A stretch of 64,000 bases of DNA from assembly GCF_025717065.2 (NCBI RefSeq), contig NZ_JAOVZO020000018.1, positions 1,178,001 to 1,242,000 of the forward strand, written 5' to 3'. This stretch comes from Tahibacter soli. GTDB lineage: Bacteria; Pseudomonadota; Gammaproteobacteria; Xanthomonadales; Rhodanobacteraceae. The notes beneath the pieces are model-generated. The model saw nothing but the letters and a program-made list of their open reading frames with translations, ran no database searches and was not told where the DNA came from. Each line of letters opens with the position of its first letter. Position 1 is the stretch's first letter. Positions 9,944-58,587 of this stretch are shown here, piece after piece. Position numbers and translations under genes: made by a program.

Positions 9944-11557
9944 ATGAAAGCCAGCGACGGTATGCAACGGGGAACGGTGCGGCGGATGCGCGATGCGGCG
10001 CTCTGCGCGTGTTTGATAGGCATGGCGGGCGCGGCGCTCGCCGAGTCCGCCGTGCGCCGCGTGTCGACGACGCCGCCCGTGCGCGGTGCGGCGCCCGCCG
10101 ATGCGGAAGGGATGACCTGCGCGACGATACCGGACGACGGCTACGACGGCAGCCTCGGCTCGATGACGTGCGTCGACGTGCCCGGCGTGAACGCGACGGT
10201 CGAGCACGTCAAGCTGCACCTGGCGCTGCGGCATCGCTTCGCCGGCGACCTCGTGGTCAAGGTCGTCGACCCGGGCAATCGTGCGGTGACGGTGATGAGC
10301 CGGCCGGGCATGCCGGAAAGCGCCGACGACGGCTCGGGCTGCTGCGGCGCTCCGGCCGGATTGACGCAGACCTCGCCGGTCAGCTTCGCCGACGACGCGG
10401 CCGGACCGTCGGCCGAAGCGATGGGCGCGGGCTTGCGCGACGCCCAGGTCGTGTGTCGCGACGATCCGAACTGCGCGTTCGTACCGGCGGCGGGCGCGGC
10501 GGCGCCGGGCGGTCTGTCGACGTTCAACGGCGCGAACGGCGCGGGCACGTGGAAGGTGTGCGTCGGCGACGCCGAGAATCTCGAGACCGGCGGCCTGTGT
10601 TCGGCCGTGCTCGCGTTCAACCGTCTCGAAAGCGATCTGGCGCTGACCGCGACGTTTCCGAACGGCATGTCGGCCGACCAGCCGTACGTGCTCGCGTTCG
10701 ACGCGGTCAACCGCGGGCCTAGCGCGCAGACGAACGTCTTCGTGAACGCGGTGCTGTCGTCGGGCCTGAGCTACGTGTCGGACGACTGCGGCGGCGTGCC
10801 GAGCGGCGAGGGCTGGCGCTGGAACGCCGGCGCGCTCGGCGTCGATGCGCACGCGCGCTGCAACGTCACGGTGCGCATGGCGCAGTCGGGCCAGTGCCGT
10901 TCGGTCAGCACGACCGCGGGCATCGCCGGCGACATCGCCGACCCGCAGCCGCAGAACAACGTCGCGGTCGCGCAGGAAGGCGATGCGAACCGCGTCGTCG
11001 ATCCGGGCTACGAAGCGTCCGGACCGGCCGGCGGCGGCGCGTGGACGTCGACGTCGACGAACTTCGGCCACGTGTTCTGCGCGGTCGGTCGCTGCACCGA
11101 CGTACCGACGCTCAACGCCTGGGACGGCGACTGGTGGGCGTGGTTCGGCGGCGTCGATCCGGTCATGCCGGGCGATGCGGCGTTGCCCGAAATCGGCACG
11201 GTCCGGCAGACGGTCGCGATTCCGGCCGGCGCGACGGCGCTCGCGTTCCGGCTGCGCGTGCCGAGCTGCAGCGGCAGCGCGTCGGACTTTCTCGCGCTCA
11301 CCGTCGACGGCGTCGAGCGCTGGCGCGTCGACGCGAGCGACGCCACGCTGTGCGGCGGCACCGCGTACACACAGCAGACGGTCGACGTATCGGCGTTCGC
11401 CGACGACGCGAACCATGTCGTCGAGTTGCATGGCGAGCAGCGGGCGGCGGGCGGCGCGACGTCGTTCTTCGTCGACGACGTGCAACTCGTCGCGCCGGCG
11501 GTCTGCGGTCGCGGCGACAGCGTCTACCTCGACGGGTTCGAGGGCGCGACGCCGTAG
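9944..11557 (+). CDS. Secreted multidomain DUF11-type protein with DGFE C-terminal tail
   Basis: This protein of 537 residues has a signal peptide, probably read from the inner region MRDAALCACLIGMAGAALA (about 16-34). Residues about 60-225 form a P-domain-like module with GAGTWKVCVGD. About 228-345 are a DUF11 (conserved-repeat) Ig-like domain (YVLAFDAVNRGPSAQTNVFV). About 360-520 form a jelly-roll domain like carbohydrate-binding or MAM modules (FGHVFC, DWWAWFGG, FFVDDVQLV). Many cysteines suggest disulfides. The protein ends GDSVYLDGFEGATP, a tail shared with two other secreted proteins in the window. The start follows GGGAG at 9933-9937. Function is unknown; surface or extracellular location is likely. 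Confidence 0.78.
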   Translation: MKASDGMQRGTVRRMRDAALCACLIGMAGAALAESAVRRVSTTPPVRGAAPADAEGMTCATIPDDGYDGSLGSMTCVDVPGVNATVEHVKLHLALRHRFAGDLVVKVVDPGNRAVTVMSRPGMPESADDGSGCCGAPAGLTQTSPVSFADDAAGPSAEAMGAGLRDAQVVCRDDPNCAFVPAAGAAAPGGLSTFNGANGAGTWKVCVGDAENLETGGLCSAVLAFNRLESDLALTATFPNGMSADQPYVLAFDAVNRGPSAQTNVFVNAVLSSGLSYVSDDCGGVPSGEGWRWNAGALGVDAHARCNVTVRMAQSGQCRSVSTTAGIAGDIADPQPQNNVAVAQEGDANRVVDPGYEASGPAGGGAWTSTSTNFGHVFCAVGRCTDVPTLNAWDGDWWAWFGGVDPVMPGDAALPEIGTVRQTVAIPAGATALAFRLRVPSCSGSASDFLALTVDGVERWRVDASDATLCGGTAYTQQTVDVSAFADDANHVVELHGEQRAAGGATSFFVDDVQLVAPAVCGRGDSVYLDGFEGATP

Positions 11558-11591
11558 CGATCGGGCGCGTCGGGCAGCGCGCCGCGGCGAG

Positions 11592-12704
11592 TCAGGCGAC
11601 GGCCGCGGCGCAGCGGCGGGCGAGGTCGATGTCCTTGAACGCGGTCAGGCGCGGCAGCACGCTGCGCAAGAGCGCGCGGGCGGCGCGCTTTTCGCCGAGC
11701 CGCGCGCTGGCGATCACCAGGTGCGCGGCGATGAAGTCGCAGACCATCTGCGTCAGCGGCGTGTTGGATGCCGCGGCCTGGCCTTCGATCGCGCGCTCGA
11801 AACGATCCTTCGCGACGTCGTCGTGGCCGCGTTCGAGCGCGATCAGGCCCTCGGCGTAGTCGACGAACGTCTGCGCGAGCGCCGTGCGCGTGCGGCCGGC
11901 GATGCCGGCGAGCAGGCGCTGTGCCGCGTCCGCGTCGCGCCGGCGCCAGACGAGCGTGACCGCGTAGTCGATCGTTTCGGGCATGCCGCCGCCGGAGAGG
12001 CGCCACGCCTCTTCCTGGCAGCGCAGGGCGCCGGTCCAGTCGCGTGCGGCGAAGTGGATCGACGCGATGCGGCCGAGGTACACCTGCCGGGGTGCGACGG
12101 TCGCCTCGTAGTGCGCGACGCTCGCTAGCGCGGCGGCGAGATCGCCCTGCGCCGCCACCGCGGTCGCGTCGCGGATGTCGACGTCGAACCGCGGCGTCGG
12201 GGCCAGAAACCACCGCCGCCAGCGGCGAAAGAACGCGCATTGCCTGCGCACGTCGTCCCAGCGCGCCCACGCCGAAGCGTCGAGCAGCTTCTGGTACGCC
12301 AGCGACGGAACCGCCGCCCAGGCGGGAAACGCAAGGCCGATCGCCGCGAGCGCGAAGCTCGCCTGGTCGACGAGCGAATACGGCGCGCCGCCGGCGAGAT
12401 TCCACAATGCCCACGCGAGCGGCGGCACCCAGGCGATCCAGTTGCCGATGTAGCAGGCGCGCACGAACGCGAAACCGTGCAGCGGATCGGTGAGCGCGGC
12501 GAGCTCTGCGTCGGCGCTGACCTCGGCCGGCGCCATGCCTTCGGCACGCAGCTGCGCAGGCAATATCTCGTCGGTGTGGAACACGATGTCGCGCAGCCCG
12601 CTTTGTTCGAGCCGGAACTTCGCGGCATCGAGACTCGCCGCGTCGATGCGGCCGGCGCGGCGCCCGCCGTCGTCGCCGGCGGCCGAGTAGAGGAACAGCG
12701 TCAT
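11592..12704 (-). CDS. Membrane protein with GspF-like N-terminus and helical repeats
   Basis: I do not recognise a characterised family for this 370-residue protein. The first 45 residues (YSAAGDDGGRRAGRIDAAS...) resemble the short N-terminal module of type II secretion GspF proteins, but the rest does not. Two hydrophobic stretches lie at about 86-108 and 112-135. The C-terminal 200 residues are Ala-rich helical pairs, like TPR repeats. The start is fixed by AGGGAAGTGCG just upstream. It is divergent from the TetR gene, whose operator-like palindrome lies 77 bases upstream of this start, so TetR may control both. It meets the previous gene tail to tail. Confidence 0.68.
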   Translation of the reverse strand: MTLFLYSAAGDDGGRRAGRIDAASLDAAKFRLEQSGLRDIVFHTDEILPAQLRAEGMAPAEVSADAELAALTDPLHGFAFVRACYIGNWIAWVPPLAWALWNLAGGAPYSLVDQASFALAAIGLAFPAWAAVPSLAYQKLLDASAWARWDDVRRQCAFFRRWRRWFLAPTPRFDVDIRDATAVAAQGDLAAALASVAHYEATVAPRQVYLGRIASIHFAARDWTGALRCQEEAWRLSGGGMPETIDYAVTLVWRRRDADAAQRLLAGIAGRTRTALAQTFVDYAEGLIALERGHDDVAKDRFERAIEGQAAASNTPLTQMVCDFIAAHLVIASARLGEKRAARALLRSVLPRLTAFKDIDLARRCAAAVA

Positions 12705-12780
12705 CGCACTTCCCTGGCTGCGGATGCGCGGTTGTAGCACGGCTCGCCCGTGCATGGCACGCGGCGCTTGCCGTTCGCGG

Positions 12781-12809
12781 CCTTCATGTTTACAGTGTAA
12801 ACATGAAGG
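12781..12809. promoter_or_regulatory. 29-bp perfect palindrome over the tetR start codon
   Basis: The arms CCTTCATGTTTACA and TGTAAACATGAAGG flank a single G at 12795 with no mismatch. The ATG of the TetR gene (12803-12805) lies inside the right arm. TetR dimers bind palindromes of this size, so this is most simply an autoregulatory operator. A ribosome site cannot be placed upstream without entering the palindrome, so translation may be leaderless or weak. The inner core GTTTACAGTGTAAAC is the likely contact region. Confidence 0.85.
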
Positions 12810-13390
12810 CGCAGCCGACCACCGCGCAGGCGCTGCTCAAGGCCGCGCGCAAGCTGTTCGAAAAGCACGGCGCCGAGGCCGTGACGATGCGGCGCGTCGG
12901 AGATGCGGTCGGCGTCAGCGCGATGGCGATCTACCGGCACTATCCGAACCGGCAGGCGCTGCTCGACCGCATCGCGACCGAGGCGTTCGTCGATCTCGCC
13001 GCGCATCTCGCCGCCAAGGCGACGCAGACCGACCCGCTCGCGCGGCTGACGCAGCTCGCCGACCTGCATCTCGACTTCGCGCTCGCGCACCGCCGCCTGT
13101 ACGACTACATGTTCTTCGCGCCGCGGCCGGGGGCGCGCAAATATCCGGACGATTTCCACGCGCGCGGTTCGCCGACCGCCAATCCGCTCGCCGATGCCGT
13201 CGCCGACGCGATGCGCGCGGGGCAGTTGCGCGACGACGACGTCTGGGCCGTGGCGTTCGCGCTGTCGACCCAGGCGCACGGCCTCGTCGCGCTGTATCTC
13301 GGCGGCCGTTTCGCGTTCACCCTGCCGCAATTTCGCGCGTTCTATCACGCCACGCTCGGGAGACTCATCGATGGACTCAAAGCCCGCTGA
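12803..13390 (+). CDS. TetR-family transcriptional regulator
   Basis: This 195-residue protein has the TetR N-terminal helix-turn-helix at about residues 10-56, with VTMRRVGDAVGVSAMAIYRHY carrying the recognition helix. The C-terminal ligand domain is of the TetR_C type (ADLHLDFALAHRRLYDYMFF). The start codon sits inside a perfect 29-bp palindrome, strongly suggesting self-repression. The Lnt-like gene begins before its stop (20-base overlap), so the two are co-transcribed and translationally coupled. The effector is not known. Confidence 0.88.
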   Translation: MKAQPTTAQALLKAARKLFEKHGAEAVTMRRVGDAVGVSAMAIYRHYPNRQALLDRIATEAFVDLAAHLAAKATQTDPLARLTQLADLHLDFALAHRRLYDYMFFAPRPGARKYPDDFHARGSPTANPLADAVADAMRAGQLRDDDVWAVAFALSTQAHGLVALYLGGRFAFTLPQFRAFYHATLGRLIDGLKAR

Positions 13391-14834
13391 CGCGCCGCTC
13401 GCGTTTGCGTTCGCCGCCTTCGCCGCGACCGCCGCCGGCGCGTACTTCGCCTATGCGCTGCAACCCGTGTGGTGGCTCGCCTGGCTCGCGCCGATCCCCG
13501 TATTCGCGTACGCGCTGCGCGCCGGCCGCGCGATGGCGTTTGCCGTCGCCGCGCTCGCGTTTCTCGCCGGCGCCGCGAGCTGGTGGCCGTTCCTGCACGG
13601 CCGCCTGCACGTTCCGGCGTTCGCGCTCGCCGCGGCGTTCGCGGTGCCGTCGCTGCTGTTCGGCGTCGCCGCGCTCGTGCTGCGCGCGTTCGCGCGGCGC
13701 GGATTCGTCGCCGCCGCGCCGTTCGCGGTCGCCTGCCTGTGGACCGCCGTGTCGTTCGTCGCCGCGTCGACGTCGGTCGACGGCACCGCCGGCAATCTCG
13801 CGTATTCGCAGATGGACTTCCTGCCGGCGATCCAGATCGCCGCGTTCGGCGGCATCCACGCGATCGGTTTTCTCGTGATGCTGTTCGCCGCGAGCATCGC
13901 CGTGGTCTTCGCACCGGTCGCGGCGAACGCGCGCCTGCGCGCATCGGCGATCGGCGTCGCCGTCGTCGCGCTGGCGCTCGCGGCCGGCGGCTGGCGGCTC
14001 GCCGACACGGTGGCGCCGACGTTGAAGGTCGCCGCGCTCGCGATCGACGACCCCGGCGCCGAGCTCGTGCCGAAGGCCGGTTCGCCGGCCGGGCAGGCGC
14101 TGGTTTCGCGCTACGTCGACGGCGTCGGTGCCGCGGCGAACGCCGGCGCGAAGCTCGTGCTGATTCCCGAGAACATCGCGACGGTCGACGACGCCGCGGC
14201 CCCGGCCTTCGAAACGGCGTTCCGCGACGCCGCGCGCGCGAACGCGGTCGACGTCGTCGTCGGCGCCGGCCGCGGCGCGACCGGCCCGGAACGCAACGTC
14301 GCCTACGTGTTCCGCGCCGGAGGCGACAAACCGGAAAGGTATACGAAGACGCATCTCGTGCCCGGCTTCGAAAAGCACTTCGCGCCGGGCGACGGCACGC
14401 CGCTCGTCGTCGACGATCCGGCCGCGCGCTGGGCCGTGTCGATCTGCAAGGATCTCGATTTTCCGCAGTACCAGCGCAAGTACGGCCTCGCGCGCGCGGG
14501 CCTTCTCGTCGTGCCGGCGTGGGATTTCGTCGACGACGCGTGGATGCACAATCGCATGGCCGTGCTGCGCGGCGTCGAGAACGGCTACGCGATGCTGCGC
14601 ACGGCGCGCGACGGCCTGTTGACGGTCAGCGACGACCGCGGCCGCGTGCTCGCGAGCGTCGAGAGCGCATCGGCGCCGCTCGCGATGCTCGTCGCGACGG
14701 CGCCGGTCGCGCATCGTCCGACGTGGTACGCGCGGATCGGCGATGTATTCTCGTATGCCGCGATCGCCGTGTTCGTACTGCTGTGCGCGTTGCTCGCGCT
14801 CGACGCGCGCAAGCGCGCCGCCGGATCGATCTGA
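13371..14834 (+). CDS. Lnt-like membrane acyltransferase (nitrilase-superfamily)
   Basis: The 487-residue protein has six or more hydrophobic segments in the first 205 residues (for example 10-50, 55-75, 84-104, 113-133, 155-182, 190-208). A carbon-nitrogen hydrolase domain runs from about 218 to 450, and a last membrane helix lies at about 463-480. The catalytic triad is visible: Glu267 in LIPEN, Lys326 in YTKTH and Cys359 in SICKD. This is the plan of apolipoprotein N-acyltransferase, but it is TetR-linked and lacks the usual lnt neighbours (corC, ybeY). It is more likely a paralogue acting on another substrate than the essential Lnt. The start overlaps tetR by 20 bases. Confidence 0.8.
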   Translation: MDSKPADAPLAFAFAAFAATAAGAYFAYALQPVWWLAWLAPIPVFAYALRAGRAMAFAVAALAFLAGAASWWPFLHGRLHVPAFALAAAFAVPSLLFGVAALVLRAFARRGFVAAAPFAVACLWTAVSFVAASTSVDGTAGNLAYSQMDFLPAIQIAAFGGIHAIGFLVMLFAASIAVVFAPVAANARLRASAIGVAVVALALAAGGWRLADTVAPTLKVAALAIDDPGAELVPKAGSPAGQALVSRYVDGVGAAANAGAKLVLIPENIATVDDAAAPAFETAFRDAARANAVDVVVGAGRGATGPERNVAYVFRAGGDKPERYTKTHLVPGFEKHFAPGDGTPLVVDDPAARWAVSICKDLDFPQYQRKYGLARAGLLVVPAWDFVDDAWMHNRMAVLRGVENGYAMLRTARDGLLTVSDDRGRVLASVESASAPLAMLVATAPVAHRPTWYARIGDVFSYAAIAVFVLLCALLALDARKRAAGSI

Positions 14835-17351: not shown

Positions 17352-19433
17352 ATGCTGCTTTTTCGGGGTTGTGCAAATCTTTGCGCGGCGCTCGCCGCGC
17401 TCGTCTTCGCCGACGTCGCGCACGCCGACGTGCGCGTCTGGCCGAGCTTCACCGGCATCGGCTGCACCGGCACGCTGCAGGCGTGCATCGACGCGTCGGC
17501 GGCCGGCGACACGGTCGTCATCGGTGCCGACGATCCGCTGTTTCCCGACGCGTACACCGCGATCGACGAATCGCTGACGATCGTTCGCGGCATCACGCTG
17601 CGCGCGGGCGACGGCATCGACGCGGCGTTCGCGCCGGGCCGCGGCATCCGCATCGTCTCGTCCGGCGCCGATCCGTTCGACGCGACGCTCGAACGCCTGC
17701 AGCTGCGGCGTGCGCGCATCTACGTCGATCACGGCAGCTCGTCCGCGGCGACGTACCTGCTCGATCGCGTGCGCATCCGCGACGCGGGCGACGGCGACGC
17801 GTGCGCGATCGATTTCAACGGCAGCGGCAGCGGCGATCCGCACTTCATCGCCGGCGACGGCGACCTCGGCTTCGAGCGGCCGCGCACGACGAGCAACGCG
17901 GCGATCTGCGCGTCGCACGCGAGCGGCAGCTGGCGCGTCGACGTGTTCCGCAACCGCATCGTCGCCGCGCGCGGCGCGCTGTTCGCCGGCATCTCGATCG
18001 GCGGGCCGGTCGGCGGCAACGTCGTGATCGACGCGAATCAGGTGCGCGGCATCGATCTCGTCCGCGGCATCACGGTCTCGCACGGCGCCGGCGCCGCGAG
18101 CACGATCCGCGTGCAGAACAATGCGATCGCCGGCCAGTCGATACCGGGCCTCGGCGCCGACGAATGGGCGATCCGCGCGGCCGTCGCCAACGCGGCCGTG
18201 TTCGTCGTGAACAACACGACGGCCTACAACGCGCGCGGCGTCGCCGTCGTCGCGGTCGGCGGCGGCAACTCAGGGCGCGTGGCGAACAATCTCGTCGCGT
18301 TCAACACCGCCAGCGGCCTGCTGATCGACGCCGCGGGCGTGACGAACGCGAACAATCTCGCGTTCGGCAACGGCGCCGACTTTTTCACGCCCGGGCCGGG
18401 CACCGTCGTCGCCGATCCGCTGCTGGGCGGTCGCGACGACCTGCGCACGCGCGCCGGTTCGCCCGCGCGCGGCGCCGGCAGCAACGCCGACGCGCCGGCG
18501 TTTCCGCTCGGACCCACGTTCGACGCCGACGGCGAACTGCGCATCGTCAACGGCACCGTCGACATCGGGGCGTTCGAGAAGAACGCCGACTACGCCGTCG
18601 TCGAACGCGCCGACGCGTCGAACACGAGCGGCAACGTCACGGCCATCACCTCGCTCGCGGGCCTGCTCGGCACGAACGAAGCGCTGCAGCTGACGCCGAT
18701 CGCATCGCCCGGCGTCGCGAGCGCATCGCTGGCGGCGAACCTCGGCGTCTACCTGGAATCGACAGCGCCGGTCGCGTGGGCCGTGTTCGCCGAAAACCTC
18801 GGCGCGCTGCCGCTGACGCGCCGCTACGCCGTGCTCGCGGCGCTCGACGGCCGCGAGCGCTACGTGCACGCCACGACGCTCGCGAACGTCGTCAACACGT
18901 TCACGACGCTCGACCATCCCGATCTCAACGGGCGCCCGTTCGCGCTCGCGTTCGTCACGCACAACTGGAATCCCGACGGTGTCGGCGGCACGTATCACGA
19001 CCATCGGCTCGGCCTCGCGTATGCCGGCGCGCGCTGGGCGATCGGCAACCAGGACCCGACCGACATGCCGGCCGGCCTCTCGTTCAACGTCGCGATCGCG
19101 CCGGCCGGTTCGCCGAACGCGTTCGTCGCCGGCGTCGGTGCGTCGTCGCGCGCGGCCGTGCCGGTGTCGCACCGCCTGCTCGACGGCAATCCGTGCGCGG
19201 CGCCCTCGGTCACGCGCAACAACGGCGCGAGCGGCGCGTCGAACGACGTCGCGTTCGCGCTGCGCTATCGCCGCGGCGGCCCGGGCGCGGCGGGCGGCTG
19301 GCAGATCGAAACGGTCGGCGTCGGCACGCCGGGCTTCACCGCCGGCACCGCGTTCAACGTGATGGTGCAGGGCGCGCAGGCGAACGCCTGCCGCGACGAT
19401 CGTATCTTCGTCGACGGTTTCGACGGGGAGTAG
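17352..19433 (+). CDS. Secreted right-handed beta-helix protein with DGFD C-terminal tail
   Basis: This 693-residue protein starts with a signal peptide (about 1-25, AHA-D). Residues about 95-395 look like a parallel beta-helix of the pectin-lyase or choice-of-anchor type, with repeated short N-rich turns (NNAIAG, NNTTAYNARGVA, NNLVAFNTASG) and an end like GAFEKN. Residues about 470-680 hold a beta-sandwich module with the pattern YVHATTLAN, NWNPDGVGG, AIGNQDPTDMP and FNV, seen in many secreted bacterial proteins. The protein ends DDRIFVDGFDGE. No catalytic residues are evident. The ribosome site AGGAG is at 17341-17345. It probably acts outside the cell or on the surface. Confidence 0.78.
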   Translation: MLLFRGCANLCAALAALVFADVAHADVRVWPSFTGIGCTGTLQACIDASAAGDTVVIGADDPLFPDAYTAIDESLTIVRGITLRAGDGIDAAFAPGRGIRIVSSGADPFDATLERLQLRRARIYVDHGSSSAATYLLDRVRIRDAGDGDACAIDFNGSGSGDPHFIAGDGDLGFERPRTTSNAAICASHASGSWRVDVFRNRIVAARGALFAGISIGGPVGGNVVIDANQVRGIDLVRGITVSHGAGAASTIRVQNNAIAGQSIPGLGADEWAIRAAVANAAVFVVNNTTAYNARGVAVVAVGGGNSGRVANNLVAFNTASGLLIDAAGVTNANNLAFGNGADFFTPGPGTVVADPLLGGRDDLRTRAGSPARGAGSNADAPAFPLGPTFDADGELRIVNGTVDIGAFEKNADYAVVERADASNTSGNVTAITSLAGLLGTNEALQLTPIASPGVASASLAANLGVYLESTAPVAWAVFAENLGALPLTRRYAVLAALDGRERYVHATTLANVVNTFTTLDHPDLNGRPFALAFVTHNWNPDGVGGTYHDHRLGLAYAGARWAIGNQDPTDMPAGLSFNVAIAPAGSPNAFVAGVGASSRAAVPVSHRLLDGNPCAAPSVTRNNGASGASNDVAFALRYRRGGPGAAGGWQIETVGVGTPGFTAGTAFNVMVQGAQANACRDDRIFVDGFDGE

Positions 19434-19479: not shown

Positions 19480-21030
19480 TCAAGGCTGACAGCCGCAGTC
19501 GCCGACGAGGCGCATCAGCCGGTTGCCGCGCGAGTTGCGATACTCGAACCGCATGCTCTTGATGTTGACGTCGCAGTTCGGCTCGTTGTCGGCGCAACGC
19601 GTATCGCGAACGATCGCGTTGGCGGTCAGCCGGTCGTTGTAGAACTCGTAGTAGTTCAGGTCGTCGGCGAACTCGGGCGGATTGAGTACCTCGGGCTTCT
19701 TCGTCGCCGTGCGCACGTCGAGCGTTCGCAATGCGCTGTTTTCATGAATGTATACCTTTTCTCTCGTGCGGTCCCACAGCAGCATCGGCGTGCCGAACTG
19801 CCGGGCTTCGACCTGCGGTTCGGTCCAGAAACGGCAAGGGCACACCGCGCCGGTGCGCTCGACTTCGGAGGCCGTCAGCGGTTCGAGCACCGGCCCGAAA
19901 AGTTCGGAAGGAAGGTCGCTGAAGATACCTGGCCTGTCCTCTTTTGCGTCTTTTCGCGCGTCGAGTCCCTGTGCCGGCGGTGGCGACGCGGCAGCGGTGG
20001 AGGCAGGGGAAGTCGTCGCGGCCGGCGTCGACGAAGGCGGGGGCGACGATCGCGTCGCCGCAGCTACGGCACTCCGGTCGGCGGATTCCGGCGCTTCGAC
20101 CGGTGCCCGGACTGCCTGATCCGCCGGCGTCGTCGCGACATTGACCAGGGGGCCGTCGAGCCACAGGACGCCGATACCGGCGCCGACGATGGCGAGCGCC
20201 GCCGCCGCGGCGACGATCGTTCGCCGCCGCGGCGGGCGGCGGCCTTTGCGGATGGCTGCGAGGTCGCGTGCGACATGCGCGCCGCGCGCATAGCGCTCAT
20301 GCGGTTGCCGCGCGAGCAGCCGATCCAGAACCGCCTGGAACGCGGCAAACGCCGGCGGCAATGCGGTCGGACCGCCGACGCAGCGTCGTACGGCGATTTC
20401 GTTCCACGATCCGCCGTGCGGCGGCGAGCCGACGAGCAGCTCGAACAGGATGAGGCCGAGTGCATACAGATCGCTGCGGCCGTCGACCGTTTCGCCGGCG
20501 ATCTGCTCGGGACTCATGTACAGCGGCGTGCCGGCGAACGACGTGCCGGGCACCGTCGTTCGCTGCAATACCCGGGAGATGCCGAAGTCCGTCAACACCG
20601 GCGTCGTCGCGTCGCGCATCAGCACGTTCGCGGGTTTCAGATCGCGATGCACGATGCCGTTCTGATGCGCGATATCGAGCGCGAGCGCGATCCGCGAAAT
20701 GCAGTCGATCGTGCGTGCCGGTTCGAAGGGACCATGGGACATCTGCGTTTCGAGCGTGCCGCCGGGCACGTACTCCATGACGATGTAGTGGCGCGAGTCG
20801 ACCGGACCGTTGTCGTAGATCCGGACGATATCCGGTGTGTCGAAACCGGCGAGCACTTCGGCCTCGCGCACGAAGGCAGCGTACGGGTCGAAGGCGTCGC
20901 CTCGCGACTCGTTGAGGATCTTGATCGCGACGCGGCGCTTGTTCAGTCGATGCTCGGCGAGCCAGACCTCGGCGAACCGGCCTTTACCGAGCGGCTGCAA
21001 CAGCGCGTACCGGGGAATGTCGATCGACAT
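19480..21030 (-). CDS. Membrane Ser/Thr protein kinase with Cys-containing extracytoplasmic domain
   Basis: The 516-residue protein begins with a complete Hanks-type kinase domain (about 8-260): glycine loop LGKGRFAEVWLA, VAIKIL lysine, HRDLKPANVL catalytic loop, DFGISR metal-binding Asp, and GTPLYMSPEQ. A membrane helix follows at about 273-292, then a Pro/Ala/Thr-rich linker. The outer domain of about 150 residues contains CPCRFW, CADNEPNC and GDCGC. Six cysteines in an exported domain suggest disulfides or metal binding. It lies 13 bases after a second kinase gene with near-identical N-terminal architecture, so they form an operon and probably a duplication. Substrates and signal are unknown. 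Confidence 0.87.
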   Translation of the reverse strand: MSIDIPRYALLQPLGKGRFAEVWLAEHRLNKRRVAIKILNESRGDAFDPYAAFVREAEVLAGFDTPDIVRIYDNGPVDSRHYIVMEYVPGGTLETQMSHGPFEPARTIDCISRIALALDIAHQNGIVHRDLKPANVLMRDATTPVLTDFGISRVLQRTTVPGTSFAGTPLYMSPEQIAGETVDGRSDLYALGLILFELLVGSPPHGGSWNEIAVRRCVGGPTALPPAFAAFQAVLDRLLARQPHERYARGAHVARDLAAIRKGRRPPRRRTIVAAAAALAIVGAGIGVLWLDGPLVNVATTPADQAVRAPVEAPESADRSAVAAATRSSPPPSSTPAATTSPASTAAASPPPAQGLDARKDAKEDRPGIFSDLPSELFGPVLEPLTASEVERTGAVCPCRFWTEPQVEARQFGTPMLLWDRTREKVYIHENSALRTLDVRTATKKPEVLNPPEFADDLNYYEFYNDRLTANAIVRDTRCADNEPNCDVNIKSMRFEYRNSRGNRLMRLVGDCGCQP

Positions 21031-21043
21031 GCTGCGGCTCGTC

Positions 21044-22780
21044 TCAGTCGGGGTTGGACTGCAGCCATCCTTCGGCCAGCCATGAGCCGTTCCCGGCCGC
21101 GAGCTTCATCAGCCGTCTCCCTTCTCTTTCGTCCTTTTCCACGCCGTGTCCGAGGAGATAAGCCTGCGCCAGCATGTGTTGGGCGGAGCCGTAGTTGTTC
21201 GCGGCAGCCTTGCGGGCCCACAGGACCATCGTCGGAAAGTCGTCGCGATTGTTCGCATAGCGCGCGACGGCGTACTGCGCGTGCGTGTAGCCGGCTTCGG
21301 CGGCCTTCAGGTACCACTCGTACGCCTTGTCGAAGTTCTTTTCGACGCCGTGCCCCTTCTCGTATGCGACGGCGAGATTCGTCTGCGCCGGCGCGAACTT
21401 CTGCCGGGCGGCGCGCGTGAACAACTCGACAGCCTTGACGTCGTCGTGCGGCACCTCCAGGCCGTGGTAGTACAGGATGCCGAGATTGTTCTGGGCCTCG
21501 GCAATGCCGTCCGCCGCGGCGAGCCGCAGCACCGGCAGCGCGCTCTTGTATTTCTTCTGCTCCATGTCGCGGTATGCCTGCTTGAGCTGCGCCTGCGTAA
21601 ATTTTTCCGCAGGCTTCGCGGCAGGCGCGGAGGCCTTGGCGGCGGCCCCCGCGGCTTTTTCCGGCGCCGGTTTTGCGGAAGTCGCCGCGGCGACGGGTCG
21701 CGGTGTCGCATCGACGGGCGCATCGGCGGGTTTCGCGTCGTCGGCGCGGGCCGGCGCTGCCGACGGCGTCACGAGCGTCGCCGGCGCCATTGGCGTCGGC
21801 ACCGGCGTCTTGTCAGGCTGCAGCCACCACCAGACGCTCGTGCCGCCCGCACCGAAGATCGCCGCCGCCGCCAGCGCGAGGATCGGCCAGCGCCGCACGG
21901 CGGGCGCGTTCGCGGGGGCCGGCGAGCCTGCGTGAGGTGCGGACTCCGGGACGAACGGCGTCGCCGAGCGCGTCGACTGCGTCAGCGCGATCGTGCGGAT
22001 CGCAGCCACAAGTTCGGTACCGTTCGCGAACCGCATATCGGGCGAGCGGGCGAGCATCCCGTCGACGATCGGTTGAAAGGCGCGCGTGCCGGCCGGCAGC
22101 CAAGGCGCCGACTTTTCGTCGATGCGAGTGCGCGCGATCTGCGTGTAGTCGCCCGCGTGCGCCGGCTCGCCGGCGATCAGCTCGAACAGGATCAGGCCGA
22201 GCGCGTAAAGGTCGCTGCGGCCGTCCAGCGGCTCGCCGAGCAATTGCTCGGGGCTCATGTACTCGCAGGTGCCGACGACGACGCCGGTCGCCGGTACGAT
22301 AGTCGTGCGGTCGAGCACGCGAGCGATGCCGAAGTCGGTCAGTACGGGCGTCGTCGCGTCGCGCATCAGAATGTTGTCGGGCTTGAGGTCGCGATGGACG
22401 ATGCCGCGCGCGTGCGCCAGGTCGAGCGCGGCGGCAATCTGCGAAACGATGTGCAGCGCCGCGTTCGCGTCGATCGCGCCGTGTTGCATGCGCGCCTTCA
22501 GCGTGCCGCCCTCGACGTACTCCATGACGATGTACGCGTGCGGCCCGGCGCGGCCGTTGTCGTAGATATGTACAATATTGCGCGAATCGAACTTCGCCAT
22601 CAGCTCGGCTTCGCGGCGGAACGCAGCGTCGACATCGACCGCGCCGCCGCCGGCTTCGGGTTTGAGTATCTTGATCGCCGCCCGGCGCTTGTTCTGTGTG
22701 TGCTCGGCGAGCCAGACTTCCGCGAAGCTTCCCGTACCTAGACGTTTCGTCAGCACATAGTTCGGGACATCGATCGGCAT
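21044..22780 (-). CDS. Membrane Ser/Thr protein kinase with Sel1-like repeats
   Basis: The 578-residue protein has an intact kinase domain (LGTGSFAEVWLA, AAIKIL, HRDLKPDNIL, DFGIAR, GTCEYMSPEQ) over about residues 10-265. A membrane helix lies at about 310-330, followed by an Ala/Pro-rich linker and, from about 415, at least four Sel1-type helical repeats (AQNNLGILYYHGLEVPHD, AQTNLAVAYEKGHGVEKN, AQHMLAQAYLLGHGVEKD). Sel1 repeats bind proteins, so the outer part may sense a periplasmic partner. ATGs at 22798, 22792 and 22780 are possible; 22780 is chosen because GGAG lies 9 bases upstream and it aligns with the paralogue start MSIDIP. It is the first gene of the kinase pair. Confidence 0.87.
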   Translation of the reverse strand: MPIDVPNYVLTKRLGTGSFAEVWLAEHTQNKRRAAIKILKPEAGGGAVDVDAAFRREAELMAKFDSRNIVHIYDNGRAGPHAYIVMEYVEGGTLKARMQHGAIDANAALHIVSQIAAALDLAHARGIVHRDLKPDNILMRDATTPVLTDFGIARVLDRTTIVPATGVVVGTCEYMSPEQLLGEPLDGRSDLYALGLILFELIAGEPAHAGDYTQIARTRIDEKSAPWLPAGTRAFQPIVDGMLARSPDMRFANGTELVAAIRTIALTQSTRSATPFVPESAPHAGSPAPANAPAVRRWPILALAAAAIFGAGGTSVWWWLQPDKTPVPTPMAPATLVTPSAAPARADDAKPADAPVDATPRPVAAATSAKPAPEKAAGAAAKASAPAAKPAEKFTQAQLKQAYRDMEQKKYKSALPVLRLAAADGIAEAQNNLGILYYHGLEVPHDDVKAVELFTRAARQKFAPAQTNLAVAYEKGHGVEKNFDKAYEWYLKAAEAGYTHAQYAVARYANNRDDFPTMVLWARKAAANNYGSAQHMLAQAYLLGHGVEKDEREGRRLMKLAAGNGSWLAEGWLQSNPD

Positions 22781-37911: not shown

Positions 37912-41561
<3,650 letters not shown>

Positions 41562-52127: not shown

Positions 52128-53783
52128 TTATCTGGCGCCTGCGACATCCTCGCGCAAGATCCGCAGCACCTCCGCCACCGCCTCGCGACTCTCGTACACG
52201 TCGTGCCCCCACTCGACGACGAGCGTCGATGCCGCGCCCGGCAGCAGCGCGCTGTCGAGCGGCACGAAGCCGTCGGTCGGCGGATCGCGGCCCGGCAGGC
52301 TGCCGGCGATCGTGTGGTACGGAATCGACGGCAGCAGCGCCTGTGCCGCCTTGCGCACCGGCTGCGCCGTCTGCAGCGTCGTGATGCTGTTGAGCAGGCC
52401 GCGCTGGTACAGCATGCGCAGGTCTTCCTTGACGTAGCCCGCGTTCGCGCGGGCCAGGCGCCGCAGCGCGTCGATCTCCGGCGCGCGCTGGCCGACGATG
52501 CTGCGCGCCAGCCGGCCGAGGAATCCGTCGGCCGTCGGGCTGCCCTTGTGCGGCGACGCGATGAAGATCGCGCGCGTCACGCCGGGATAGCGGCCGAAGT
52601 GAAACACCTGGTCGGCCAGGCGCAGATCGTCCTCGTCGCCGGCGAAATCGCCGATCGGCGCGTTGAACGCGGCCGACCACAGTGCCTCGCCGCTGTCGAC
52701 GCTGAGCAGTCGCGACAGCACGCCGCCGAGGCTGTGGCCGACCAGTACGATGCCGCGCCGCGCCGCGTCGTCGCCTTCGGGATCGACCGCCTGCCACGTC
52801 GCGTCGAGATAGCCGCGCAGGCGGTGCCGCAGCACGAGCGTCGGCGCGTTCGTCTGGTACACCATGTGCCACACTTGAAATTGTGAACGCAGCAGCGCGT
52901 CGCCCCAGATCGCGTTCGACAGCCGCGCCCACGCGAGCGGATTGCTGCCCAGGCCGTGGATCATCACGACCGGGCGCTTGTTCGGATCGTAGTCCTCGAG
53001 CAGGTACAGGCCCGCGCGCCGGCCGATTTCATTGCCGCGCAGCAGGCCCCAGACACCGAGCCGGCGCAGCGTCGACGTGCTCGCGCCGTGCGCGTAGAAC
53101 GCGGACGTGTCGGCCGCGAGCGGATAGCGCCGCGCGCCGACCTGCACGTCGCCGAGCGCGACGGGATCGCCGATCACGAGCCGCGGCATCGGCGCGCCGG
53201 GCGCGTTTTCGATCCACGCGGTCGCCCAGCGGAACACGCCTTCGGGCGGCAGGTGCGTGCACAGCGGCCGGTCGTCGCAACGCGGCGCGAGCAAGGTCAG
53301 CGGCACGCCGAAGCCCGGCGTCGTGTGGCGCTCGCCGTCGAACAGGTCGGCCGGCACGTCGGCCGCGAGCGCGAGCTGCGCGGGCTTGGAGAAGTAATGA
53401 CTGATGCGGCGAAAGTCGACGTCGACGGCGACGCCCGCGATGCGCGTCGGCCCCGGCCTCCAGCCCGGCGACGAGCGGCGCAGCACCGTTTCGAGCAGGC
53501 CCTCGGTGCAGCGGTTCGCGAGCGTCGCGGCGGCGCTGGCGACGTCGGCGCGCGGCGACGCCATCGGCGCGTACGCCGTCGCGGCGCAGCGCAGCCAGTA
53601 TTCGGCGCGCGCGCGTTCGTTGCGGGCGTGCGCGGCGGAGTAGGCGAGGCTGCGCGCGGCTTCGAGTTCGGTCGATACGTCGGCGACGACGGGGGGCTGC
53701 GACGGCGGCGCGTGCGCGCACGCGGCGAGCAGCGCGCACAGCGCTGTCCCGAGACATCGAACACCGGCCGACGAGCTTCGCAT
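52128..53783 (-). CDS. Lipoprotein alpha/beta hydrolase
   Basis: The 551-residue protein begins with a lipoprotein signal (LLAACA, Cys about 22), then a helical or unassigned half to about 270. An alpha/beta hydrolase domain follows with VVMIHGLGSNP (oxyanion), the nucleophile elbow VGHSLGG (about 345-351) and a possible histidine in EWGHDVYES near the end. The domain fits DUF676/lipase-like serine hydrolases. It should act in the periplasm or outer membrane, on lipids or peptides. It is divergent from the CadC-like regulator (71 bases), so the regulator may control it. Confidence 0.85.
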   Translation of the reverse strand: MRSSSAGVRCLGTALCALLAACAHAPPSQPPVVADVSTELEAARSLAYSAAHARNERARAEYWLRCAATAYAPMASPRADVASAAATLANRCTEGLLETVLRRSSPGWRPGPTRIAGVAVDVDFRRISHYFSKPAQLALAADVPADLFDGERHTTPGFGVPLTLLAPRCDDRPLCTHLPPEGVFRWATAWIENAPGAPMPRLVIGDPVALGDVQVGARRYPLAADTSAFYAHGASTSTLRRLGVWGLLRGNEIGRRAGLYLLEDYDPNKRPVVMIHGLGSNPLAWARLSNAIWGDALLRSQFQVWHMVYQTNAPTLVLRHRLRGYLDATWQAVDPEGDDAARRGIVLVGHSLGGVLSRLLSVDSGEALWSAAFNAPIGDFAGDEDDLRLADQVFHFGRYPGVTRAIFIASPHKGSPTADGFLGRLARSIVGQRAPEIDALRRLARANAGYVKEDLRMLYQRGLLNSITTLQTAQPVRKAAQALLPSIPYHTIAGSLPGRDPPTDGFVPLDSALLPGAASTLVVEWGHDVYESREAVAEVLRILREDVAGAR

Positions 53784-53854
53784 GCATCCCCCTTCGCGCC
53801 GCGCAACGTTAGCGCATCTGCGCCGCGTTCGAACGGCGTGGCATCATCGCGTGG

Positions 53855-56131
53855 ATGATCTACCGCTTCGGCGACTTTCGACTCGACCCGGCTGCGCGCG
53901 AACTGCGGCGCGCGGATGCCGCCGTTGCCGCGCCGCGCCGCGTGTTCGACCTGCTCGTGTACCTCGTCGAGCAGCGCGACCGCGCGGTCGGCCGCGACGA
54001 ACTCGTGTCCGCCGTGTGGGGGCGCGTCGACGTCGCCGACGTGCAGGTGAGCCAGCTGATCGCGCGCGCGCGCCGCGTGCTCGGCGACGACGCGCAGGCG
54101 CAGACCGCGATACGCACGGTGCCCGGCTTCGGCTATCGCTGGGCGATGGCGGTGACGGTCGACGAGGCGCCGCCGCCCGACGTCGTCACGCCGTCGAATG
54201 CCGCGCCGTCGATCGACGCGCCGCCGTCGAAGCGCCGCATCGCGCTCGGGCTCGCGCTCATCGCCGCGCTCGTCGCCGCGCTGCTGTTCGCCACGCGCGA
54301 CGGCGAACGCCGCGAAGCGCCGCGCGCGGCGGCTGCCGCGTCGATCGCGGTGCTGCCGGTCGACGTCGACGGGCCCGCCGATGCGAGCTGGGTGCCGCTC
54401 GGCGTCATGGATCTCGTCGCCGCGCGCCTGCGCGACGCGGGCCTCGCGGTGCCGCCGAGCGACAGCGTGATGGCCGCGCTGCATGCGGCGCGCACGCGCG
54501 ACGCGACGCGGCCGGTCGCCGACGTGCGCGCGATCCTCGGCACCGCGCGGCTGGTGCGCGGCTCGGCGCGCAAGGCCGCGAACGGATGGATCGTCGCGCT
54601 CGAAACCGACGACGACGACGGCCAGCGCCATCGCGTGGAAGCCGAACGCACGGACGTGATCGATGCGGCGAGCCGCGCCGCCGACCTGCTGCTCGCCGCG
54701 CTCGGTCGCACCGACGCATCGCCGCGCGAGGGCGGCGACGCGCTCGACGAGATCGCGCAGCGCATCCAGGCCGCGACGCTCGCCGGGCGCTACGACGCGG
54801 CCGGCGAAATCCTCGAATCGGCGCCGCCCGACGTGCGCGCCAATCCGCGCCTGCGCCTGCAGGCCGCGCAGCTCGACTACTACCGCGGCCGCGTCGACGC
54901 GGCGCGGCAGCAGGTCGACGCGCTGCTCGCGACCGAACTCGACGCGCCGCTGCGCGCCCGCGCGCTGACGTCGCGCGGCCTGTTGCACGTGCGCGCGGGC
55001 GAATGCGCCGAAGCCGAGCGCGCGTTCGACGCGGCACTCGCGGCCTGGCCGAAGACCGAACCGACCGCGCTCGCCGGCCGCGGCCTTGCGCGCACGTGCC
55101 TGGAAAAGCACGCGGCGGCGGCCGACGATCTCGGCCTAGCGCGCGTGCGGCTCGAAGCGGCCGGCGACCGGCTCGGCGTCGCGCGCGCCGACAACTATCT
55201 CGGCATCCTCGATGCGAACCGCAACCGGCTCGATGCCGCCCGTGCGCGCTTCGACGCGGCGCGCGAAACGTTCGAGGCGTTCGGCGTGATCGACGCGCAG
55301 CGCGCGGCGCTGTCGGCGCTGATCGACACCGATGTGCACCTGTTGCGCTGGAACGACGCGCTGCGCGACGCCGAGCGCCTCGCGGCGCTGCGGCCGAAGA
55401 TCACCGACGCGGCGCAGCGGCAGATTCTCGACAGCGACCGCGCGCGCGCCTACATCGGCGTCGGCCGCTGGCGCGACGCGGCGATGCTGCTCGCGCCGAC
55501 GCCCGGCGAAGTGACGAGCGGCGCCGCGCAGCGCTATCTCGACGCGGTGCGCGCCGATCTCGCGTGGCGCGAAGGCCGCCGCGACGATGCGCGCGACGCC
55601 GCGCGGCGCGCGCTGGCCGACTGGCCCGACCGCGCGTCGGACGATCGCCGCGCGGCGGCCGTGCTCGTGCTCGCGCGCGCGTCGCCGGATTCGCCGGTGC
55701 CGGTGCCGCCGGCCGAGTCGGGCGACGACGTGCCGGCCGGTCTGCCGCTGCTGCGCATCGCGGCGGCCGAGCGCGCGGCGGCGAGCGGCGACGTCGCCGC
55801 CGCGTCGCACGCGTTCGTGCAGGCGCAAGCGGCGGCCGACGCGGCGGCCGTACCGTCGGTGCTCGTCGCGACGACGGCGAGCCACGCGCAATGGCTGATC
55901 GGGCAGGGGCGCGTCGAGGAAGCCGCGTCGCTCGCCGGCCGCATCGCGCCGTGGACCGCCGACGACTTCGACGGCGCGCTGCTGCGCGTCGCGCTGTTTC
56001 GCGCGCGCGGCGAGCACGAGGCGTGGCGCGCGAGCCTCGATGCGGCGCGGCGTCTGGCCGGCGAGCGCGCGATTCCGCCGGCGTTGCTCGAGGCGCCGCT
56101 GCCCGGGAATGTGCGCAACGTCATGAAATAG
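53855..56131 (+). CDS. CadC-like winged-helix regulator with TPR-like repeats
   Basis: The 758-residue protein starts with an OmpR-type winged helix (about 1-95: IYRFGDFRLDP, YLVEQRDRAVGRDELVSAVWG, RTVPGFGYRW). A linker to about 125 follows, then a single membrane helix (about 130-148), a mixed alpha/beta segment with SIAVLPVDVDG (about 163-173), and from about 290 Ala-rich helix pairs that resemble TPR repeats. It is a one-component membrane-linked transcription factor like CadC, without a phosphate switch. It may read a periplasmic signal. Its likely target, by arrangement, is the divergent lipoprotein hydrolase. No autoregulatory site was identified. Confidence 0.85.
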   Translation: MIYRFGDFRLDPAARELRRADAAVAAPRRVFDLLVYLVEQRDRAVGRDELVSAVWGRVDVADVQVSQLIARARRVLGDDAQAQTAIRTVPGFGYRWAMAVTVDEAPPPDVVTPSNAAPSIDAPPSKRRIALGLALIAALVAALLFATRDGERREAPRAAAAASIAVLPVDVDGPADASWVPLGVMDLVAARLRDAGLAVPPSDSVMAALHAARTRDATRPVADVRAILGTARLVRGSARKAANGWIVALETDDDDGQRHRVEAERTDVIDAASRAADLLLAALGRTDASPREGGDALDEIAQRIQAATLAGRYDAAGEILESAPPDVRANPRLRLQAAQLDYYRGRVDAARQQVDALLATELDAPLRARALTSRGLLHVRAGECAEAERAFDAALAAWPKTEPTALAGRGLARTCLEKHAAAADDLGLARVRLEAAGDRLGVARADNYLGILDANRNRLDAARARFDAARETFEAFGVIDAQRAALSALIDTDVHLLRWNDALRDAERLAALRPKITDAAQRQILDSDRARAYIGVGRWRDAAMLLAPTPGEVTSGAAQRYLDAVRADLAWREGRRDDARDAARRALADWPDRASDDRRAAAVLVLARASPDSPVPVPPAESGDDVPAGLPLLRIAAAERAAASGDVAAASHAFVQAQAAADAAAVPSVLVATTASHAQWLIGQGRVEEAASLAGRIAPWTADDFDGALLRVALFRARGEHEAWRASLDAARRLAGERAIPPALLEAPLPGNVRNVMK

Positions 56132-56277
56132 CGGTTTGATACCGGTTTGCTATCGCCCGGATAGCGGGCCGGCAAGGCGCGCGGCGGTCGCGGAACGACA
56201 GTCGGCAGACCGACCGTCACCACCGCGTCATGCGGCTGTGTTCGCGGTCATCACCCCCCGCGCCGAGGTCCATGACG

Positions 56278-58587
56278 ATGTTGCTACGCCCGAATCGACT
56301 CGCTCTTGCACTGCTTGCCCTGCTCGCGTCCCCCGCTTACGCGAAACCCGTGACCGTCGCGCCGGCCGGCGGCGAAACCTGCTCCGCCGACGGCCTGTGC
56401 CTGACGCTGACCGTCGGCCGCGCCGATCCGGCGAACCCGCAGGCCTGTGCGGCCGAGGGCCCGCTGACGGTCGACGTCGGCGACCCGGTCAGCTGGTGCT
56501 ACACGCTGCGCAACGCCGGCACGCGCACGCTCGGCTTCCACAACGTGACCGACAGCGTGCACGGCGCGGTGCTGTCGCAGCTCGCGCGCATCCTCGCGCC
56601 GGGCGAGTCGTACAGCCACGTGCGCGTCGAGCGTGCCGGCACGGCGACGACCGGCGCCGTGAACGCGCGCTGGACCGCGAGCGAGACGCAGTCGAGCTAC
56701 ACGACCGACGATGCGATCGCGTTCGACTACATCGACGCGACCGACGGCGACCAGCTCGCGATGACGGGCGGCTTCGCCAGCGCGCGCAGCACGGCCGTGA
56801 CGCTGCCGTTTCCGATCGACTTCTTCGGCACGGTCACCGACCGGCTCTGCGTGGGGCACGGCGGCGTCATCGTCGTCGATACGTTCGTGTGCGCGCCGCC
56901 GAGCACGTTCGGCTTTCCGTCGTTCTACGTCGACAAGGCGATCGCGCCGATGTGGTCGAGCTTCGACAAGGACGTCGGTGCGACGTACATCAAGACGCTC
57001 GGCGAAGCCGGCCAGCGCCGCACCGTGATCGAGTGGAAGGACTACGCGCTCGACTTCCCGGAAATGCCGGGCTTCACGTTCGAGGTCGTGTTCGAGGAGG
57101 CCACCGGCGCGATCGTGTTCAACTATGCGTCGACCGGCTCGGGCGACGGCGCGTTCGGCGACGCCGGCGAAATGGCGGCGGTGGGACTGCAGTCGAGCGC
57201 CTCGACCGGCGTCGTCTACTCGTTGTTCGACCCGAATCTCGCGCCCGGCGACGCCGTGCGCTTCACGCCGGCACCGACGCAGACGTGGTCGGTCGATGCG
57301 AGCGTAGCGGTCGACATCGGCGCCGCGCGGCTCATGCTGCCGGTGCCGTCGCTGACCGCGAACGCGGGCGTCGGCATGACGATCCAGCAGCCGATGGTGG
57401 TGGTCAACACCGGCAACCGCGCGCTGACGTGGAGCGCCGGCGAATATCCGGCGGCGCCGCTCGCCGCGCTCGCGCCGCTGAAACTCGCGCCGCGCGTCGC
57501 CGAAAACGCGAGCCTGACGCGCGCCGGGCGCGATCCCCATCCGCGCGTGCTGCGCGCCGCGCCGCGCGCCGCCGCGCCGCTCGGCGGCTGGGACGTGCCG
57601 GCCTACGGCATGCAGTCGGTGCCGGGCGAAGGGCTCAACTACGTCACGCTCGACCTGCGCAACGACGCGGCGCTGCAGACGATCGTCCCGGCGATCGACC
57701 AGCGCGGCTTCGCCGGCATCACCGGCGGCGACTTCGTCGGCGAGGACTTCACGCAGCAGCTGATGATCGACAGCGACTACGACCGCCTGTACCGCTTCGA
57801 CACGCTCACGGGCGCATCGACGCTCGTCGGCTGGCCGACCGGCAACATGACCAACGGCTTCGAGTACTGGAGCGGCGTGACGTGGGACGCGTCGACCGAC
57901 ACGCTGTACGGCGTCACGTCGCGCTACAACGCGCAGCGCGAGTGCTTCTGGACCGGCCTGTACACGATCGACGCGACGACGGCCGCGGCGAGCTACGTCG
58001 GCCCGATCGACACCGGCGCCGACAACTGCCTGATCGACATCGCGGTCGACGGCAACGGCGCGATGTTCGGCCTCGACATCAAGACCGACACGTTGATCGC
58101 GATCGACAAGGCCACCGGCAAGGCGACGACGGTCGGTTCGCTCGGCGTCGACGCGAACTATCTGCAAAGCATCAAGTTCGACCGCTCGACCGGCACGCTG
58201 TACTGGGCCGGCTACGCGCAGGGCATCGGTTTCGTCGCGACGATCGACCCGGTCACCGGCCAGCCGACGATGGTCGGCCCGACGCCGGGCAACCGCGAGA
58301 TGGCGGCGGTCGCGATCGCCAAGGCCGGCGGCGACTGCAGCCAGCCGCTCGACACGCCGTGGCTGACGATCAACACGACGGGCGGCACGCTCGAGCCGGG
58401 TGCGCCGGCCGGCGTGTATCCGCTGACGTTCGACGCGTCGCAACTCGCCGCCGGCGAGTACCGCGCGTCGATCTGCGTGTTCAGCAACGATCCGGCGTAT
58501 CGCGCGCATCCGGCGATCGTGCCGGTGAGCTTCACCGTGCACGCGCCCGACGCGATCTTCGCGAACGGATTCGAACAGGCGCGGTAA
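56278..58587 (+). CDS. Large secreted protein with DGFE-type C-terminal tail
   Basis: This 769-residue protein has a signal peptide (about 1-23), a first beta domain (about 25-110, like DUF11), a central jelly-roll-like region (about 125-330; WTASETQSSYTTDDAIAFDY, FDYIDATDGD), and a propeller-like region of short repeats (about 475-680; DSDYDRLYRFDTLTGAS, DIKTDTLIAIDKATGKA, VTGQPTMVG). It ends APDAIFANGFEQAR. ATG at 56278 is chosen because GAGG lies 9 bases upstream; 56272 is also possible. Function unknown; extracellular or surface location is likely. Confidence 0.76.
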   Translation: MLLRPNRLALALLALLASPAYAKPVTVAPAGGETCSADGLCLTLTVGRADPANPQACAAEGPLTVDVGDPVSWCYTLRNAGTRTLGFHNVTDSVHGAVLSQLARILAPGESYSHVRVERAGTATTGAVNARWTASETQSSYTTDDAIAFDYIDATDGDQLAMTGGFASARSTAVTLPFPIDFFGTVTDRLCVGHGGVIVVDTFVCAPPSTFGFPSFYVDKAIAPMWSSFDKDVGATYIKTLGEAGQRRTVIEWKDYALDFPEMPGFTFEVVFEEATGAIVFNYASTGSGDGAFGDAGEMAAVGLQSSASTGVVYSLFDPNLAPGDAVRFTPAPTQTWSVDASVAVDIGAARLMLPVPSLTANAGVGMTIQQPMVVVNTGNRALTWSAGEYPAAPLAALAPLKLAPRVAENASLTRAGRDPHPRVLRAAPRAAAPLGGWDVPAYGMQSVPGEGLNYVTLDLRNDAALQTIVPAIDQRGFAGITGGDFVGEDFTQQLMIDSDYDRLYRFDTLTGASTLVGWPTGNMTNGFEYWSGVTWDASTDTLYGVTSRYNAQRECFWTGLYTIDATTAAASYVGPIDTGADNCLIDIAVDGNGAMFGLDIKTDTLIAIDKATGKATTVGSLGVDANYLQSIKFDRSTGTLYWAGYAQGIGFVATIDPVTGQPTMVGPTPGNREMAAVAIAKAGGDCSQPLDTPWLTINTTGGTLEPGAPAGVYPLTFDASQLAAGEYRASICVFSNDPAYRAHPAIVPVSFTVHAPDAIFANGFEQAR

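Follow-up and report, generated by a model that had tools for sequence, protein, structure and literature searches.

A short tag on unrelated exported proteins of Tahibacter soli and its relatives, and its co-occurrence with a PDZ-type type II secretion system

Results

Three exported proteins of one locus end in the same tag

The window analysed here is a stretch of 64,000 nucleotides of the Tahibacter soli genome (contig NZ_JAOVZO020000018.1, positions 1,178,001 to 1,242,000, forward strand; Rhodanobacteraceae). It contains three genes, all on the forward strand, whose products end in a common short motif, called the tag below. P0001 (9944-11557) matches DUF11 and, barely above the cut-off, the P-domain; its tag, DSVYLDGFEGATP (11516-11554), reads DSVYLDGFE, followed by GATP and the stop codon. 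P0002 (17352-19433) matches DUF7452 and a choice-of-anchor Q domain, and ends in DRIFVDGFDGE (19398-19430), that is DRIFVDGFD followed by GE and the stop. P0003 (56278-58587), with a weak match to DUF4394, ends in DAIFANGFEQAR (58549-58584), which is DAIFANGFE followed by QAR and the stop.

A preliminary description of the window, made from the letters alone, had noticed these tails and taken them for a sorting or secretion signal on otherwise unrelated secreted proteins. The tails were indeed read in all three proteins, each directly before its stop codon. Domain searches with Pfam and NCBIfam found the three bodies unlike one another and gave no match for the tails themselves, and a simple script detected a signal peptide at the start of each protein (3/3). 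The same description had argued that the tail is separate from the P-domain, as two neighbouring P-domain proteins lack it. The genes called at 3379-3978 and 4020-5948 are devoid of the tail; moreover, since the tagged P0001 itself has a P-domain match, tag and P-domain are independent.

The host genome carries a large set of tags

To follow the tag at the scale of the genome, as had been proposed, we used the DNA pattern RTNTWYNNNRAYGGNTTYGAN, which codes for [IV]-[FY]-x-[DN]-G-F-[DE] with six fixed positions. It matched 87 times in the 6.65 Mb host genome, far more than the three copies of the window, and the reversed pattern did not match at all. In 72 cases the match lay 0 to 13 residues before a stop codon, the other 15 being internal. 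Among the 72 terminal tags, 63 were followed by only 0 to 4 residues (longest, 13), the fourth place was shared between D (37) and N (35), and D or E was found two places before the pattern in 69, though the pattern did not demand this residue. Beyond the six fixed positions, strong conservation was seen only at this acidic residue, and upstream positions down to -24 were not conserved. The consensus is [DE]-x-[IVLM]-F-x-[DN]-G-F-[EDQ], with a single conserved Gly and no membrane helix in the tag.

Called genes contained 82 of the 87 matches; of the five others, one was in a spurious-looking frame and four in frames leaving the fetched stretch. Applied to all called genes, the signal-peptide script, which is liberal and also passes membrane proteins, was positive for 77/82 tagged genes compared to 328/636 untagged neighbours. 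When a later helix was excluded, the figures were 73/82 and 209/636, so that 73 of the 82 tagged genes have what is expected of a substrate of a type II secretion system (T2SS), a signal peptide with no further membrane helix. Among the five tagged genes failing the script, one clearly opens with a signal peptide by eye. With a relaxed motif, the last 25 residues yielded 8 further tails in the 209 exported genes without a tag, and 1 in the remaining 427; near the N-terminus it matched four times, in two exported and two non-exported proteins, of which one is tag-like. With 15 of 87 matches internal and the tagged genes exported, the motif passes the test set by the preliminary description, that it should not be equally common at internal positions or in cytoplasmic proteins. 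Carriers are mutually unrelated: domain searches named DUF11, P-domain, DUF7452, DUF4394 and Endonuclease I proteins, and subtilases, kelch and plastocyanin-like proteins were recognised by eye.

The tag is portable and occurs both at the ends of proteins and inside them

The description of the motif as a C-terminal tail holds for the 72 terminal copies. It is too narrow for the others: some internal tags lie directly behind the signal peptide (L056 and L072 in the host, L116 and L126 in other genomes), others are insertions within domains, and tandem tags were found at L068 and L124. In a subtilase with an internal tag, the insert was present in a homologue at 82% identity and absent from four homologues at 32-48%. 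As it occurs behind signal peptides and in loops as well, the tag is portable, and not bound to one position. Near-identical fragments of a subtilase-like gene, internally tagged, open two contigs, L057 (C17:1-5279) and L087 (C20:1-5281), which could reflect an assembly break in a repeat.

Within a genus, orthologues retained the tag with variants such as NGFQ, DSFE or DAFQ while the linker changed; in one family, 1 of 6 relatives had no tag. At greater distance the tag was often absent; for an internally tagged protein in G055, a variant was present in 2 of 6 homologues. For the Endonuclease I family, the match to the domain extends to residue 394 (of 420), with the tag in the tail beyond; 12 of the 14 aligned members had the tag or a variant of it, the exceptions coming from G388 and G379. 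A structure model of an Endonuclease I carrier (mean predicted local distance difference test score, pLDDT, 65.9) placed the tag in a disordered tail behind the last helix, with pLDDT below 50. The model of an internally tagged protein was poor (55.8) and hints at a loop for the tag. A fold search returned Ig-like (CopC-type) domains first, which was uninformative on the tag.

Codon usage bears on whether the signal resides in the protein or in the DNA. An AT-rich genome, G044, encodes the same tag residues with other codons (ATTTTTAACAATGGGTTTGA and similar), and a DNA-level element, such as an uptake sequence or one suggested by a resemblance to the tRNA T-arm, was rejected on this ground. 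In the host, the Gly codon of the tag was GGG in 31/82 cases, compared to about 6/107 at other [DN]GF sites, an excess which could reflect a spread of tags by copying. An Ala directly preceding the I/V was always encoded by GCG in the 72 terminal tags (26/26).

Multiple tags were met only in Lysobacterales

In a set made up of the host and 60 relatives (61 genomes), 27 genomes had 7 to 97 matches and 34 had 0 to 3; these 27 are the tagged genomes of this set. In a class-wide draw outside the order, a single match was found in 19 of 271 genomes, never more, and control matches numbered 3. The strict pattern including the stop codon was also sought in one genome per species over 84,980 species, a scan from which host records or near kin were possibly left out; it returned 9 stretches, all from Lysobacterales, including Dokdonella fugitiva and Chiayiivirga flava. 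A set of multiple copies was thus met only in Lysobacterales. The preliminary description had pointed to similar tails in Rhodanobacteraceae; 4 of the 14 sampled genera of this family, which is that of the host, do have them, in a distribution that is patchy and spread across the order. No description of the motif was found among the papers listed by literature searches, which is weak evidence that none exists.

Tags co-occur with one kind of type II secretion system

The preliminary description had suggested looking for a processing or secretion gene co-occurring with the tag. Two candidates emerged, a T2SS whose GspC has a PDZ domain and, as the second, a surface-layer (S-layer) gene. The T2SS in general was rejected as a partner, GspD-like matches being present in 60 of the 61 genomes and hence uninformative, which leaves only the division into kinds as informative. 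GspD searches revealed two main kinds in the order. Kind A corresponds to a gspC-D-E-F locus. From 30 loci of this type, 29 GspC were recovered, all with the T2SSC domain (29/29) and at least 26 of the 29 with a PDZ domain. Kind B is a cluster retained also by tag-free relatives, and none of its three GspC candidates, picked by position, matched the PDZ model. In Xanthomonas, GspC is reported to have a helix in place of the PDZ fold of other GspC (PMC11981180). T2SS loci of neither clear kind were seen in f2 genomes (L187, G057) and in G031 (L185), which have no tags.

All 16 genomes of genus g35 have kind A, and each gave 0 to 3 matches for the tag with its usual Gly. A homologue from one of them, G341, ended in DAIFADRFEGPLD, suggesting an Arg form of the tag. 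A pattern for an Arg/Ser form, chosen after this one homologue so that the remaining genomes served as the test, gave 368 matches in the 16 genomes compared to 19 for the Gly form, the reversed control giving 0 in all of them; the yield was 9 to 66 per genome in fifteen and 0 in G387. In G341, the Arg/Ser form was C-terminal in 5 of the 6 loci read. Such a concerted change from Gly to Arg/Ser is expected if a single reader serves all copies of the tag.

We then scored 160 genomes of the order for Gly-form tags, Arg/Ser-form tags and kind-A GspD, counting a genome as tagged from 5 matches on. A GspD match counted as kind A when its E value did not exceed 1e-90 and its identity reached 45% or more; some of these matches were split or truncated at contig ends, and two contig-edge fragments (G446, G413) were accepted in addition. 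G362 and G448 (39-40% identity) were set aside as other kinds, as were six f2 genomes with values close to 1e-76, and no more than one Gly-form match was seen in any of the eight. Tag and kind A were both present in 83 genomes and both absent from 65, with 6 genomes having the tag only and 6 kind A only (8 if G362 and G448 were counted as kind A). In other words, 83 of the 89 genomes with at least 5 matches have kind A. By genus, the figures were 30 both, 31 neither, 3 kind A only and 0 tag only. This makes 61 concordant genera out of 64, a value reached by none of 20000 within-family shuffles (mean 50.8, maximum 59). When Gly-form tags alone were considered, from 4 matches on, 66 genomes had both, 5 the tag only, 23 kind A only and 66 neither. 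The 26 f2 genomes illustrate the association, as real tags were found in G388 only, and kind A likewise in G388 only.

For some of the discordant genomes an explanation can be proposed. The 9 matches of G384 come from one repeated gene, a transposase by eye (6 of the 9 loci were read, and the matched letters are identical in 9/9). Three genomes with tag and no kind A are incomplete or fragmented (G351, 90%; G361, 77%; G418, 96% in 530 contigs), and their congeners have kind A. With kind A, G041 had 4 matches, yet 15 with the pattern used on the 61-genome set. In G387, the GspC was the most divergent among those aligned; a tie between this divergence and the absence of tags is suggestive only.

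A second gene followed the tag closely. At their kind-B locus, tagged genomes have, adjoining gspD, a gene whose product is exported and about 500 residues long (for instance at L176, L179 and L181). NpdA is an S-layer protein whose gene lies beside a T2SS cluster, and its carriers include Dokdonella, Tahibacter, Chiayiivirga and Wenzhouxiangella (PMC10765051). The exported protein fits NpdA by synteny, size, signal peptide and these listed genera, rather than by sequence comparison. In the genomes with a known place of kind-B gspD, where only the vicinity of that gene was inspected, all 26 tagged genomes had the npdA-like gene, as did 4 of the 25 untagged ones; in the same genomes, kind A was present in 24/26 and 1/25. 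The npdA-like gene also occurs in G015, G043 and G053, three genomes in which tags and kind A are both missing, which makes kind A the tighter partner of the tag.

The exosortase (PF09721), in contrast, was only weakly associated with the tag: it was present in 14 of the 27 tagged genomes and 6 of the 34 others (p 0.006), and was not found in the tagged genomes with 97, 66 and 50 matches. Exosortase was rejected as the machine, 13 of the 27 tagged genomes being devoid of PF09721.

Discussion

A candidate sorting signal for the kind-A T2SS

The co-occurrence with kind A and the concerted change of the tag in g35 lead us to propose that the tag acts as a linear, portable signal that sorts proteins to the kind-A T2SS, a reading inferred from comparisons of sequences and to which we give a probability of about one half. 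The signal peptide, seen as a sequence feature, would carry the tagged protein across the inner membrane. Once in the periplasm the protein would fold so that the tag, at one end or in a loop, remains exposed, as the models weakly suggest, and the tag would recruit it to the kind-A T2SS for passage through the outer membrane, as the co-occurrence suggests. The likeliest reader would be the PDZ domain of kind-A GspC, the periplasmic N-domains of the secretin GspD, or both; this is the least certain step. These two are put forward because the PDZ domain sets kind A apart from the T2SS of tag-free relatives, and because exposed segments binding GspC or GspD are T2SS signals in Dickeya and Vibrio: the secretion of VesB requires the PDZ domain of EpsC, a loop of PelI binds the PDZ domain of OutC (PMC12369372), and a 9-residue PelI loop works as a T2SS signal (PMC7949064).

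Several observations weigh against this proposal. G364 is tagged (4 of the 6 loci read end in the tag) and G417 has at least one real tag among the loci read, without a detected kind-A GspD in either. Conversely, kind A was found with few matches in G365 (3), G380 (2), G387 (0), G421 (0) and G449 (1). Of 10 homologues of tagged segments in other genomes, some of which run on into further domains beyond the part read, 8 had no tag at that place, and 7 of these 8 come from kind-A genomes. Published PDZ-type T2SS, those of Vibrio and Dickeya, are found outside the order, and there none of the 271 genomes drawn had multiple matches. In Vibrio, only one known substrate is fully PDZ-dependent, and the authors stress the absence of a linear universal signal (PMC12369372). 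Finally, the co-occurrence depends on few independent losses, so that any gene lost along with kind A, such as the npdA-like gene, would fit too.

Other readers, or none

The npdA-like S-layer protein is the main rival reader of the tag. The tag would then be a docking peptide: the proteins would be exported, probably by the kind-A T2SS, and retained at the surface by an NpdA-type S-layer to which the tag binds. Terminal and loop positions would suit docking, a choice-of-anchor domain is found in P0002 of the window, and the npdA-like gene accompanies the tag in all 26 tagged genomes examined, with 4 of 25 untagged ones also having it. G015, G043 and G053, which keep that gene and lack both tags and kind A, speak against docking, except that a docking tag would also vanish without its exporter; and the identity with published NpdA comes from synteny, size, signal peptide and the genera listed in PMC10765051. 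On balance we consider docking rather unlikely. The few losses behind the correlation would also allow a third gene, a protease, a modifying enzyme or an anchor, to be the reader and to have been lost alongside kind A and the S-layer gene. Among the families with at least 3 members near tagged genes in the host genome there was no obvious candidate for it, and the exosortase is missing from 13 of the 27 tagged genomes, which leaves this explanation rather improbable. The in-frame insertions within domains and the excess of GGG at the Gly codon (31/82 vs about 6/107), a possible trace of copying, could also be the mark of a selfish or neutral element within coding sequence, one that spreads by copying itself into genes for exported proteins without any role in sorting. 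Such an element is very improbable, given that the tag is tied to exported proteins, lies within 0-13 residues of the stop in 72/87 cases, is retained while its flanks diverge, uses different codons in an AT-rich genome, and changed from Gly to Arg/Ser in concert in one genus.

Comparison with known sorting systems

PEP-CTERM-like signals consist of a signature motif followed by a hydrophobic helix and a basic cluster, GlyGly-CTERM of a Gly-rich motif and then a helix, whereas the Type IX C-terminal domain is folded and about 70-100 residues long. Like PEP-CTERM with exosortase, GlyGly-CTERM with rhombosortase and MYXO-CTERM with myxosortase, the tag is a brief stretch of similarity at the C-terminus of dozens of exported proteins that are otherwise unrelated, with a patchy distribution and a many-to-one pairing with one machine. 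Unlike them, it lacks a transmembrane helix and can stand near the N-terminus or in a loop as well. With 0-4 trailing residues in 63/72 tails and 13 in the longest, there is no room for a helix after the motif, and one conserved Gly does not make the Gly-rich motif of GlyGly-CTERM. The idea of a sorting or secretion signal stands as the best reading of a tag that is separate from the domains; its likeness to PEP-CTERM does not extend to the helix, nor to the exosortase, absent from 13/27 tagged genomes. Type IX domains share with the tag the C-terminal position on exported surface proteins of diverse architecture, but occur in another phylum and are folded domains, as opposed to a nine-position motif with no conservation upstream to -24 and, in one model, a disordered tail.

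The T2SS determinants, PelI loop 3 with GspC/GspD and the Ig fold of VesB with the EpsC PDZ domain, are also exposed segments of folded periplasmic proteins associated with a PDZ-type GspC. Each of them serves one substrate, in contrast to a tag common to tens of unrelated proteins per genome. The NpdA-type surface layer resembles the present case in that a similar gene adjoins the T2SS cluster; it differs in that the available part of its account describes no tag or docking peptide (PMC10765051), and in that four examined genomes have the npdA-like gene without tags.

Recognition of substrates by the T2SS is an open question. The mechanisms of recruitment have been termed elusive (PMC7949064), and a linear universal signal is said to be lacking (PMC12369372). 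We tentatively suggest, at a level of confidence short of even odds, that the tag could be a universal portable T2SS signal of nine residues, read by the GspC PDZ domain or by GspD, common to tens of unrelated folded proteins per genome, placed at the N- or C-terminus or within a loop, and having coevolved with its reader (Gly, and Arg/Ser in one genus). If this is true, substrate recognition becomes directly testable by a nine-residue graft, surface and secreted proteins would be predictable from sequence alone across a bacterial order, and the tag would offer a possible handle for protein secretion in harmless bacteria.

Genes neighbouring the tagged genes

Neighbouring genes were also considered as the machine and rejected, the recurrent untagged neighbours of the host looking by eye like regulators, kinases, sigma factors and similar genes. 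In the window, two genes at 19480-22780, beside the tagged gene at 17352, resemble serine/threonine protein kinases; in the fetched loci, 3 of 6 such kinase-like genes lay at most 600 bp from a tagged gene. The window gene at 53782-56139 resembles by eye the CadC-type regulators with a winged helix and TPR repeats. At loci L031-L105 of the host genome (G000) this family, assigned by eye and picked after inspection of about 25 clusters, was over-represented beside tagged genes: 9 of 14 members were within 600 bp of one, compared to 131 of 636 untagged genes.

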